Part shown: in pieces, positions 37,875 through 41,409 of the stretch
How the letters are laid out: each line of letters opens with the position of its first letter
How positions within the stretch are numbered: the stretch's first letter is position 1
Source: Actinomycetes bacterium
Lineage (GTDB): Bacteria; Actinomycetota; Actinomycetes; Streptosporangiales; Streptosporangiaceae
Length of the DNA: 51,464 nt
Direction: 5' to 3'
NCBI GenBank assembly: GCA_021793235.1
Contig: JAJYTD010000030.1
Coordinates: forward strand, 1 to 51,464
Translations under genes and position numbers: made by a program
Notes under the pieces: generated by a model
Told to the model about the DNA's origin: nothing
What the model saw: the letters and a program-made list of their open reading frames with translations, nothing else
Databases searched by the model: none

Positions 37875-38503
37875 CAGCGGTGGTCCTCCTCACCGGGGCG
37901 GGGCCGGGCCGGGCCGATCAGCACGGCGTCCCGGCCGTCGAGCTCGTCGAGCAGGACAGCGACGTTCTCGCGGAGCGAGGTCGGCAGGTTCTTGCCGACG
38001 TAGTCGGCGCGGATGGGCAACCTGCGGTGGCCGCGGTCGACGAGGATGGCGAGCTGGACCGCGCGCGGGCGGCCGAGGTCGTTGAGGGCGTCGAGCGCGG
38101 CACGCACGCTGCGGCCGGAGAAGAGGACGTCGTCGACGAGGATCACGACACGGCCGTCGATGCCCTCGGCGGGGATCTCGGTGCGGCCGAGGGCGCGCGC
38201 CGGGGCCATACGGAGGTCGTCGCGGTACATGGTGATGTCGAGCGAGCCCCAGGGGATGTGCCGGTCCTCTACGCGTTCGATGCGCTCCGCCAGCCTGCGC
38301 GCGAGGGGAACGCCGCGGGTGGGGATGCCCAGCAGCGTGACGTCTTCGCCGCCTTTGGTGCGCTCCAGCACCTCATGGGCGATCCGGGTGAGCGCCCGGT
38401 CGATTTCGGAGCCTTCGAGTACGGCTCGTGTCGGTCGGAGGTCTCCGCGTCCGGGCGGAGCACCGACCCCCTCATCACTGTCCGATACTTTTTTTGCACA
38501 CAA
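37874..38503 (-). CDS. pyrR: PyrR bifunctional regulator / uracil phosphoribosyltransferase
   Basis: The 209-aa protein has the PRPP motif [22 protein letters not shown] and the PyrR-type DITMYRDDL and [17 protein letters not shown] segments. PyrR binds pyr mRNA when UMP is high and can salvage uracil. The start is TTG at 38503: no ATG or GTG lies before the conserved [12 protein letters not shown], and GGGGGAA precedes TTG at about 7 bases. A run of seven A follows in codons 3-5. A PyrR-binding-loop-like hairpin abuts the ribosome binding site, so translational autoregulation is likely. Confidence 0.93.
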
Positions 38504-38518
38504 AGTAATTCCCCCTTC

Positions 38519-38536
38519 CCTGCCTCACTGGACAGG
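38519..38536 (-). promoter_or_regulatory. PyrR-binding-loop-like hairpin at the pyrR ribosome binding site
   Basis: On the minus strand CCTG and CAGG close a loop reading TCCAGTGAGG, close to the known PyrR recognition loop (CCAGAGAGG type). GAAGG and the GGGGG ribosome binding site follow at once, 3 bases from the stem. PyrR bound here would block ribosome access, as described for mycobacterial pyrR leaders. Confidence 0.65.
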
Positions 38537-38778
38537 CGTTAAAGGATGTCGGACATGTTCACGCTATCAGCGCCACCCTTCCGGGTGATCAGACAGAGGC
38601 GCCAAACACGGGGAGAATATGACATTAGTCACGCTAATTCCCATTGAGCCTGATTCCACCGCCGCGGCGGCCAACCCGGGCGGCGGCGCCCTGACACCCG
38701 CGGAAGGCCCGGAAAAGCTTGCGTCATCGGGCTTGTAGGCTGCGGGCGCACCACGAATCGCCCGCATCGCTCCCGGAA

Positions 38779-38792
38779 TGAGAGGCCTCTCA
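38779..38792. promoter_or_regulatory. 14-bp palindrome upstream of bldD
   Basis: TGAGAGGCCTCTCA is a perfect palindrome that touches the first BldD-box-like site. It is a candidate operator; no regulator can be named. Confidence 0.35.
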
Positions 38793-38807
38793 CTTACGCA
38801 CAGTTTG
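38793..38807. promoter_or_regulatory. BldD-box-like site 1
   Basis: CTTACGCACAGTTTG fits the published BldD consensus NTNACNCWGNGTNAN at 7 of its 9 specified positions by eye. It is the same 11-base core (TTACGCACAGT) as site 2, in the opposite orientation, about 215 bases before bldD. Confidence 0.5.
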
Positions 38808-38866
38808 GCCACTGATTAGTCGCGTTTCCGCCCAACGGCTTGACCTGGAAACCGAACAGCCTTACC

Positions 38867-38881
38867 GTCACTGTGCGTAAT
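38867..38881. promoter_or_regulatory. BldD-box-like site 2
   Basis: Read on the minus strand, ATTACGCACAGTGAC fits the BldD consensus at all specified positions but one. It lies about 140 bases before the bldD start and forms a perfect 11-bp inverted repeat with site 1. Confidence 0.55.
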
Positions 38882-39021
38882 CAATCTGGGCGGAGCTGCT
38901 CCGGACACTTCTCGCGGAACGTCACACGGCCCGCTTAACGGGAAGGCTCGGTCGCAACCGGGCGAATTCGGAGCACACCACCCGCACCAGCCACCGCCAC
39001 GGCCGGGGAGCGACGAAGAAG

Positions 39022-39516
39022 ATGCCATCCGAATACGCGAAGTCCCTCGGCGCGCGCCTGCGTGCCATCCGCACCCAGCAGGGACTCTCCCTGCACGGGG
39101 TAGAGGAGAAGTCCCACGGCCGCTGGAAGGCCGTCGTGGTCGGCTCCTACGAGCGCGGTGACCGCGCGGTCACCGTACAGAAGCTCGCCGAGCTCGCCGA
39201 CTTCTACGGTGTTCCGATGTCGGAACTGCTGCCGGGAGGTGCGGCGCCGACCCCGCTGGGCCCCACGCCCAAGCTCGTCATCGACCTGGAGCGTATGCAG
39301 CAGCTTCCGCAGGAGAAGGCGGGGCCGCTCGCCCGCTACATCGCCACCATCCAGAGTCAGCGCGGCGACTACAACGGCCGCGTGCTGTCCATCCGCCAGG
39401 AGGACCTGCGCTCGCTCGCGGTCATCTACGACCGCTCCCCCGGCGACCTGACCGAGGAGCTCATCAGTTGGGGGGTCCTGGACCCCGAGGCGCGACGGGC
39501 GGTGGACGCCTTCTAG
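39022..39516 (+). CDS. bldD: Developmental regulator BldD
   Basis: The 164-aa protein is a BldD orthologue. The N-terminal helix-turn-helix (about 5-70; LGARLRAIRTQQGLS, SYERGDRAVTVQKLAELADFY) binds DNA, and the C-terminal domain binds tetrameric c-di-GMP. The c-di-GMP motif is present as Arg114-Gly-Asp116 and RQED at 125-128 (RQDD in Streptomyces, so one Asp-to-Glu change). BldD represses sporulation genes during vegetative growth and usually its own gene, which fits the two box-like sites upstream. It is divergent from the pyr operon and is followed by a 48-bp palindrome. Confidence 0.96.
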   Translation: MPSEYAKSLGARLRAIRTQQGLSLHGVEEKSHGRWKAVVVGSYERGDRAVTVQKLAELADFYGVPMSELLPGGAAPTPLGPTPKLVIDLERMQQLPQEKAGPLARYIATIQSQRGDYNGRVLSIRQEDLRSLAVIYDRSPGDLTEELISWGVLDPEARRAVDAF

Positions 39517-39568
39517 GCTGACCTGGATCTCTTCGTCCATGCCCCCTTGCCCCAGGGGCACGTACCGC

Positions 39569-39616
39569 GACGTCGAAGGCCGCGTACCCGGGCCCGGGTA
39601 CGCGGCCTTCGACGTC
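39569..39616. terminator. 48-bp perfect palindrome, probable bldD terminator
   Basis: Two 24-base arms (39569-39592 and 39593-39616), beginning GACGTCGAAGG and meeting at CCCGGGCCCGGG, are exact reverse complements with no loop. The RNA would form a stem of about 22 bp 52 bases after the bldD stop. No T tract follows, so termination is plausible but unproven. Confidence 0.6.
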
Positions 39617-39875
39617 TGCACCAGACGGACACCCGTCCGGCAAGGAACGAACGCGGCCGGGCAAGGGGCTTCCCCTCCCCCTGCCCGACCGCTCTGCGCA
39701 TCCGCACACTGGGGGCGGATGCGCGCCTGCGGGACTCCGCAAGCTCAATCGAACATGCGTTCGAGCAATGTCAGTTAACCGCATTCGACCCGCGTTCGTC
39801 AAGAACGGCCGACCGCCAAAACACCGTCCGCGATACCGCGGAAAGGCTCCGGACCAGTGCGGGGCGATAGCCCCA

Positions 39876-39881
39876 TAGAGT
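39876..39881 (+). promoter_or_regulatory. -10-like box of leaderless acetyltransferase gene
   Basis: TAGAGT is followed by six bases and the GTG start, with no ribosome binding site. Confidence 0.5.
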
Positions 39882-39887
39882 GGCCCT

Positions 39888-40538
39888 GTGCACACCGAGA
39901 TCGAGCTGTGGGAGCCGGCCGCCCCCGTCTTCGTCCACGCGCTTCCCGCGCTCCTGGAGATCTACGCCGCGGCCATGGACCCGCCCTCCGAACAGCTCCC
40001 CGGGCGCCGGGCCATCATGGAGCACCACGCCGGCAACCTCGGATTCCGCTCCGTCATGGCCATCGCTCCGGCGTCCGAGGACCCCGTACCCGCAGACCAT
40101 GGTGACGCCACCGGCACCACCGCCGTGGGATTCGCCTACGGCTTCCATGGCCACAGCGGACAGTGGTGGCACGACATCGTCACCGGTGAGCTCCACACCC
40201 GCGACCCCGCCGCCGAGCGGCGCTGGTTCGCCGACTCCTTCGAGATCGCCGAGGTCCACGTGCGCCCGGGGCACCAGGGGCGCGGCATCGGCCGCCGCCT
40301 CCTGGAAAGGCTGACGGCGGCGCGCGGGGAGCGCACCGCCGTCCTGTCGACCCACACCGGCCCCACTGTCGCACGCGGTCTCTACCGCTCGTGCGGATTC
40401 ACCGATGTGCTGCCGGAGTTCTACTTCCCCGGAAACCCCGGCCGGCCCTTCGCGATCATGGCCGCGCCGCTGCCATTGCGGGCACGCGATCGGCGGCGAT
40501 CTGCTGGTATATCTCGCGTGTGGCCGTGGACTGGTTGA
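39888..40538 (+). CDS. GNAT-family N-acetyltransferase
   Basis: The 216-aa protein has the acetyl-CoA-binding motif VRPGHQGRGIGRRLLERL near residues 125-142 and the following strand and helix TAVLSTHTGPTVARGLYRSCGF. The substrate is unknown. It has no Shine-Dalgarno sequence, and its GTG start is 6 bases after TAGAGT, so the transcript is probably leaderless. The last 28 codons overlap the 3' end of metF on the other strand by 83 bases. The family fold seems complete before that overlap, so the tail (ARDRRRSAGISRVWPWTG) may be a read-on extension. Confidence 0.85.
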   Translation: MHTEIELWEPAAPVFVHALPALLEIYAAAMDPPSEQLPGRRAIMEHHAGNLGFRSVMAIAPASEDPVPADHGDATGTTAVGFAYGFHGHSGQWWHDIVTGELHTRDPAAERRWFADSFEIAEVHVRPGHQGRGIGRRLLERLTAARGERTAVLSTHTGPTVARGLYRSCGFTDVLPEFYFPGNPGRPFAIMAAPLPLRARDRRRSAGISRVWPWTG

Positions 40539-41409
40539 ACGTGATGAAGTGGATGCCGGGGGCACCCTCGTCCAGCAGCCGCTCGCACATCCGCTGGGCC
40601 TGTTCGATGCCCAACTGCCGCACGGCCTTGGGATCGTCGGCCACCTTCTCGAACTCCGCCGCGAGATGGCGGGGGAAGGGCGCGCCCGACAACTGCTCGG
40701 ACATCGCGATCGTGGAGTACTTCACGACCGGCATGATCTCGGGGATGATCGGAACATCGCACCCCTTGGCCGCCACCCTGTCACGCAGCCTGAGGTAGTC
40801 GTCGGCGTCGAAGAACATCTGGGTGATCGCGTAGTCGGCGCCCGCGCGGCACTTGCGAACGAAGTACTCGGTGTCGGATTCGATGTCGGGGGAGCGGGGG
40901 TGCTTGTAGGGGAACGCGGCGACGCCGACGGAGAAGTCGCCGCTCTCCTTGATCAGTCGGACGAGTTCTTCGGCGTACTCCACGCCTTCGGGGTGCTTGA
41001 CCCACTCCCCCATCGGGTCCCCGGGCGGGTCTCCGCGTACTGCGAGGATGTCGCCCACGCCGACCCCGGCGAATCTACCGATGAGATGGCGCAGCTCTCG
41101 TATGGAGTGGTTCACAGCGGTCATGTGCGCGACCGGCAGCAGCGTGGTATCGGTCGCGATCCGTTCGGTGATCTCGACGGTGCGGTCCCGCGTGCCGCCT
41201 CCGGCTCCGTAGGTCACGGAGACGAACGAAGGCTGCAACGCCTCGATCTCGCGGATGACCCGCCAGAGTTTGCGCTGTCCCTCCTCGGTTTTCGGGGGAA
41301 AGAACTCGAAAGAGAATGTCGGTTCGCCGGCGGTGAGCAGATCGTGGATTCGGCGCGGCCGCGCAGCGGCACTACGCCCTTTCCCGGTGCATGTCGGTGA
41401 CCCAAGCAT
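40456..41409 (-). CDS. metF: 5,10-methylenetetrahydrofolate reductase
   Basis: The 317-aa flavoenzyme makes 5-methyl-THF for methionine synthesis. Landmarks are FSFEFFPPKTEEGQ with the catalytic Glu, SVTYGAGGGTRDRT, VAHMTAVNHS, LAVRGDPPGDP and ITQMFFDADDYL. ATG 41409 is chosen because similarity begins soon after it; the open frame continues to 41622 without support. TAGGGT lies 7 bases upstream and no ribosome binding site is seen, suggesting a leaderless transcript. It is divergent from the prenyl synthase gene and overlaps the acetyltransferase tail-to-tail. Confidence 0.94.
   Translation of the reverse strand: MLGSPTCTGKGRSAAARPRRIHDLLTAGEPTFSFEFFPPKTEEGQRKLWRVIREIEALQPSFVSVTYGAGGGTRDRTVEITERIATDTTLLPVAHMTAVNHSIRELRHLIGRFAGVGVGDILAVRGDPPGDPMGEWVKHPEGVEYAEELVRLIKESGDFSVGVAAFPYKHPRSPDIESDTEYFVRKCRAGADYAITQMFFDADDYLRLRDRVAAKGCDVPIIPEIMPVVKYSTIAMSEQLSGAPFPRHLAAEFEKVADDPKAVRQLGIEQAQRMCERLLDEGAPGIHFITFNQSTATREIYQQIAADRVPAMAAARP

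Follow-up and report, generated by a model that had tools for sequence, protein, structure and literature searches.

Downstream of bldD, the window (the whole stretch of DNA analysed here, 51,464 nt) carries a perfect palindrome that appears best read as a U-less (“I-shaped”) terminator or 3′-end hairpin, and that probably separates bldD from a predicted convergent, LexA-boxed RNA, apparently the orphan leader of a HEPN_SAV_6107 gene. The palindrome itself is the extreme of a known kind, and it is the convergent gene-less leader that merits experimental work.

The palindrome occupies positions 39569–39616 and has no strand of its own: its 48 bp consist of two 24-bp arms, GACGTCGAAGGCCGCGTACCCGGG and CCCGGGTACGCGGCCTTCGACGTC, with zero loop and zero mismatches, as the sequence-only reading had described and as direct reading of the sequence and a repeat search both bear out. 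Its placement downstream of bldD was equally correct, since it starts 52 nt past the stop (39516) of a plus-strand ORF at 39022–39516 (164 aa, BldD-like_C plus HTH), whose identity as bldD is upheld by Pfam (BldD-like_C, E 9e-38). The next gene in the plus direction is a GNAT acetyltransferase ORF at 39888–40538 (ORF and domain search), and by domain the five neighbouring ORFs tested are BldD, GNAT, MTHFR, a phosphoribosyltransferase (pyrR) and a polyprenyl synthetase. The reported absence of a T tract also held: the flanking 8 nt contain one T on the plus side (TGCACCAG) and one on the minus side, and a canonical Rho-independent terminator is ruled out by the lack of a U tract after the stem. 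The RNA fold of 39517–39700 is far stabler than that of shuffled sequences (z-score -7.6). When the sampled intergenic DNA was shuffled 20 times with its dinucleotides preserved, the longest arms arising by chance were 10–13 bp, so that a chance origin of 24-bp arms is excluded, and among the 2.1 Mb sampled, coding DNA included, this is the longest loopless perfect palindrome, the runner-up having 21 bp per arm. The genome search for other copies that had been proposed was run and returned one copy only in the entire 4.8 Mb (the second match being its own reverse strand), which rules out a dispersed palindromic (REP-like) repeat or other repeat element; a viral origin was set aside, with zero exact matches to one arm in IMG/VR.

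Three other features were observed around bldD. Just 3′ of the gene, at 39542–39559 on the plus strand, lies CCCCCTTGCCCCAGGGGC, a possible 3′ UTR element that is similar in part of the Nocardiopsaceae loci. A sub-threshold minus-strand match to the PyrR binding site falls at the start of pyrR (38500–38549). Ahead of bldD, at 38868–38880 and 38794–38806, there are imperfect matches by eye to the BldD box consensus, which may reflect autoregulation.

Hairpins of this class favour gene 3′ ends, mostly without U tracts. The survey covered 2,098,156 of the 4,817,083 genome bases, with 1,807 genes called by a simple hexamer model, and counted perfect arms of at least 12 bp with loops of at most 8 nt in gaps sorted as tandem, convergent or divergent. 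In these 2.1 of 4.8 Mb, such intergenic hairpins numbered 114, where shuffles gave about 0.6. The 828 tandem gaps held 64 of them (0.35 expected from shuffles), the 257 convergent gaps 40 (0.2 expected) and the 294 divergent gaps 10 (none expected); the caller marked 83% of bases as coding, some gaps are misclassified, and the gap of the palindrome is counted among the convergent ones because the GNAT ORF was overlooked. The share of gaps with a hairpin differed between convergent and tandem (p 3.5e-4) and between convergent and divergent gaps (p 8e-7), and no difference in arm length was seen between convergent and tandem gaps (p 0.11). In tandem gaps of at least 150 nt, 49 of 64 hairpins with arms of at least 10 bp lie closer to the upstream stop, at a median of 33 nt past it. 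Read in the sense direction, the 8 nt after the 64 tandem hairpins (arms of at least 12 bp) hold at most two T in 42 cases and at least four in 13. Arms of at least 24 bp occur in six of 151 hairpins with arms of at least 10 bp, the palindrome included. The asymmetry between G.U and A.C pairs was not significant in this class (tandem 14:7, p 0.19; convergent 7:12; divergent 2:2), and RNA-level selection on gene-end hairpins is thus unsupported. Hairpins of this sort stand after many unrelated genes of the genome, which places the palindrome at the far end of an ordinary class and makes it no new kind of site. The sequence-only reading had proposed that many such palindromes, with 3′ ends mapped at them, would reduce it to an ordinary terminator, and the first half of that proposition applies here. 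Three similar long hairpins with arms of 26–28 bp and CCGATCTCGGGAGGA-like sequence were also observed in this genome (L169:107-170, L164:4458-4516 and about G000:C34 79795-79858); they form a repeated element, perhaps mobile, with one copy near a contig end.

Structured 3′ ends of this kind have been reported from Streptomyces. Of 535 highly structured Streptomyces 3′ ends identified by Term-seq, 353 were reported as U-lacking (PMC8269248), and most S. avermitilis ends were described as GC-rich stems without a poly-U tail, for which Rho or processing has been suggested (PMC8780764). I-shaped terminators have been reported in mycobacteria (PMC12288462), and a title in the reference list of the same paper speaks of a U-tract required by the mycobacterial polymerase; self-sufficient termination by U-less hairpins in actinobacteria is disputed. 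Streptomyces terminator hairpins have been described as the longest and stablest of the species analysed, with few U (PMC12207403; see also PMC8269248), and the earlier statement that the palindrome goes far beyond what a terminator needs fails for such GC-rich actinobacteria. Like the I-shaped or HS-U-lack ends of Streptomyces, the palindrome is a stable, long GC-rich stem near the stop, with a short loop and no U tract, but its role as a transcript end is predicted and, with 24 bp and a loop of zero, it is extreme in the sampled part of the genome. It also resembles the Bi-TEPs of S. clavuligerus, ends shared by opposed transcripts that were reported to have longer stems and shorter loops than other ends (PMC8269248), whereas the opposed transcript would here be a predicted, non-coding one. 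Of the options first offered for the palindrome, a very stable bidirectional terminator appears the best supported. It shows how far U-less terminator hairpins may extend in a GC-rich actinobacterium and represents a clean single-copy test site for two-way termination.

To the right of the palindrome, a promoter-like motif, a LexA box and a conserved hairpin, which the sequence-only reading had not noticed, make the junction convergent with bldD. The putative leftward promoter, TTGACG-N18-TTAACT, was located by motif alignment at 39773–39802 on the minus strand; TTGAC is present in 25 of 25 aligned rows and the exact TTAACT in 17 of 25 (by reading), and a sigma-70 scan of 38500–40600 found no promoter. 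A motif search identified a perfect LexA (SOS) box, TCGAAC-N4-GTTCGA, at 39749–39764 (minus strand), which fits the motif tCGAAC-N4-GNNCGa reported for Streptomyces LexA (PMC9380542). This perfect box at a putative promoter occurs in a genome whose presumed lexA (TAGAACTGACGTTCGA, TCGAACGTTTGTTTGA) and recA (TCGAACAGAAGTTCGG) have one-mismatch boxes 230–360 nt upstream of the domain match, as would suit a target of LexA repression. Of the bldD loci that carry the structured element described below within 450 nt, 25 of 25 have a box with at most one mismatch within 600 nt, as does one of 80 others, some of which have an element farther off; the box of L127 and L130 is placed between the two promoter motifs and not after the −10 motif. 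The SOS RNA that would result runs leftward through 39766–39569, a length of some 200 nt if the palindrome is its end, and would contain in its 5′ part a 10-bp hairpin found by hairpin search at 39696–39724 (minus strand). The locus differs from the LexA/SOS regulon of Streptomyces in that its target is an apparent leader RNA without a gene, and the main text of PMC9380542 mentions neither HEPN nor leader nor noncoding.

The conserved structured element itself was delimited by alignment and covariance model at 39643–39703 on the minus strand (model R2, E 3.7e-9). RNAalifold gives an outer stem of 11 pairs (39692–39683 with 39662–39653 in the window), an inner stem of five pairs and an 8-nt loop, AGGGGAAG, at 39676–39669; this pairing superseded a first inner-stem pairing (model R1). 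The loop is identical in 25 of 25 aligned rows, which were chosen by a loop plus inner-stem pattern with at most two mismatches, a choice that favours an invariant loop; it was also seen by eye in each of the 20 regions that the model found in other genera. The stems pair in 96.0% of cells compared to 88.3% in shuffles, 27 cells are compensatory (changed on both sides) compared to 6.1, neither value being reached in any of 500 shuffles, and seven pairs show change on both sides compared to 4.0, as matched by four of 500 shuffles. When the structure was slid along the alignment, the best version had nine both-sides-changed cells, a comparison biased towards a structure that was derived from the alignment itself, just as relatedness alone can exceed shuffles. 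The outermost pair fails in eight of 25 rows and contributes one A.C cell. On the minus strand the 250 cells of the ten core outer pairs comprise 227 Watson-Crick, 15 G.U, no A.C and eight other combinations; as the 15 G.U would be A.C on the plus strand, these pairs indicate that the RNA is the minus strand, and the element is, on this evidence, an RNA transcribed leftward.

Of the 341 genomes from the window's family, 230 contain the element at E ≤0.001, in a model whose E-values are rough and whose filters were stricter, once per genome among the matches listed except for two in G044; weak matches outside the family (7 of 24 matching genomes, E 5e-5 to 4e-4) may be chance. No Rfam family reached the gathering cut-off in the region of the window or in ten relatives, where only sub-threshold microRNA and PyrR matches were obtained, the microRNA-type ones being dismissed as the typical yield of long hairpins. 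The 6C RNA is a structured RNA of actinobacteria. Ms1 and other 6S-like RNAs share with the element that they are structured actinobacterial RNAs, but in most species Ms1 is reported to be tied to a HAD hydrolase gene (PMC9130861), and no HAD hydrolase is found among the five neighbouring ORFs tested.

The likely origin of the element is indicated by other genera, in which it lies 156–347 nt upstream of a HEPN_SAV_6107 (PF18726) match on the same strand (38 of 38 genomes among the matches listed in both searches) and is preceded within 260 nt by a LexA-like box that has one mismatch at most (20 of 20 regions). By eye, a similar ORF stands between element and bldD in 15 of 16 regions read, and the three of these ORFs that were tested are HEPN_SAV_6107 (E 2.5e-31 or better); in the remaining region, L282, no ORF passed the filter, and its genome (G099) has a HEPN match. 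The loci combining HEPN ORF, leader and LexA-like box are L276-L281, L283, L285-L288, L290, L292, L294 and L295, in all of which the HEPN ORF lies between bldD and the GNAT/metF genes where these were found. In PMC3710099, SAV_6107 is tabulated as an actinobacterial family of HEPN-M type that lacks the conserved motif. A domain search found HEPN_SAV_6107 in 262 of 338 genomes and not in that of the window, so that the leader of the other genera is matched here by an element whose gene is missing. Strong element matches (E ≤1e-6) occur in 61 genomes, seven with HEPN and 54 outside the HEPN matches, absence being judged against 261 of the 262 matching genomes and a few of the 341 genomes perhaps lying outside the 338 searched. 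Among the alignment loci, 13 of the 17 with genome-level data are listed as having no HEPN match, the other absences following from the comparison with those 261 genomes, and in the remaining eight loci the absence was read from the locus only. The structured element thus seems to be the retained leader of a lost HEPN_SAV_6107 gene. In a pyrR plus bldD DNA tree of 43 rows (two of them, L111 and L120, without a label), the gene-less state needs seven changes, five to seven in bootstraps, of which at least two are forced by well-supported branches; the changes were read as losses and not gains because the outgroup rows all have HEPN. Among the literature matches listed, no title or abstract opening describes this RNA or a LexA-controlled SAV_6107 gene.

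Relatives retain, as far as their sequences indicate, the type of structure after bldD and not its sequence. From two sets of bldD loci (80 and 30, the window's own included), 105 of 110 were distinct, and these were searched for perfect hairpins with arms of at least 12 bp and loops of at most 10 nt within 200 nt of the gene. Hairpins follow bldD in 38 of 104 loci (one locus being too short downstream) and precede it in none of 105; 66 of 104 have none after bldD by this test. Arms reach 27 bp in L130, 26 bp in L108 and L013, and 21 bp without a loop in L036. When arms were compared in relatives for compensatory change, as had been suggested, the congeneric loci L108 and L109 gave a divided result: where one arm has changed from T to C, the opposite arm shows the corresponding A-to-G change, but the two loci have different outer stems, which are not conserved as such. 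Between bldD and the orphan leader, a hairpin of at least 12 pairs occurs, by the search used, in only 10 of 25 loci and is consequently not a fixed part of the unit; L014 has 15 nt between bldD and leader and no hairpin, and L008, L010, L124 and L125 have long imperfect hairpins there.

In the proposed explanation, which we hold to be more likely than not, the ancestral state would have had HEPN_SAV_6107 between leader and bldD, as in other genera, and after loss of the gene a single symmetric hairpin would part the rightward bldD mRNA from the leftward, LexA-boxed SOS RNA. RNA copied from either strand of the palindrome would form an identical stem of 22 bp, closed by a loop of the four central bases, and since a perfect palindrome folds alike in both transcripts, one site can end both. 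The hairpin would stall or release RNA polymerase, or mark and protect the 3′ end, and would keep SOS transcripts from extending antisense across bldD in the direction of pyrR.

It is also conceivable, if doubtful, that the palindrome is a one-way U-less terminator for bldD only and that the SOS RNA has its end at another place, for example at a hairpin of its own or through Rho. Such hairpins are common after tandem genes, and two relatives that keep the HEPN gene also have long hairpins after bldD (L106, 20 bp; L115, 17 bp), but the arms would form perfect pairs in either transcript, and the leftward unit is aimed at the palindrome, with the conserved element ending 26 nt away. Somewhat less doubtful, and still tentative, is the view that the site is no terminator, an mRNA terminated by Rho or processed being trimmed back to the hairpin that protects its 3′ end. 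This is admitted for U-poor structured Streptomyces 3′ ends (PMC8269248, PMC12207403), yet it overlaps with the preferred explanation, which names both mechanisms, and the sequence cannot separate it from true termination. A site acting at the DNA level (cruciform, protein operator or recombination site) is very improbable: perfect loopless symmetry would suit it, but the palindrome is a single copy, no conserved sequence was seen in relatives, and gene ends carry numerous unrelated palindromes and hairpins of this type.

As for the leader RNA, a decaying, functionless relic of the HEPN leader would agree with the loss of the gene and with G087 (L120), in which no element was found and which is not among the HEPN matches. 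This is unlikely, given that 25 gene-less loci keep the promoter-like motif, box and stem, show compensatory changes and all share one and the same 8-nt loop. A leader without its gene, with a structure apparently kept by compensatory change, is a candidate stand-alone SOS RNA. The further proposition, that the LexA-controlled leader outlived its gene in several Nocardiopsaceae lineages and is kept by compensatory evolution as a functional SOS-induced small RNA convergent with bldD, with the palindrome between them here, seems to us evenly balanced. If confirmed, it would give this group an SOS small RNA and provide a case of a 5′ leader more durable than its gene, and the recurrent gene-less state makes the function of the leader alone directly testable. 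Elsewhere in this genome, five further perfect LexA boxes were observed (G000:C20:7884, C45:170660, C46:149272, C93:7392 and C95:40985), none of them on the contigs that carry the presumed lexA (C52) or recA (C47).
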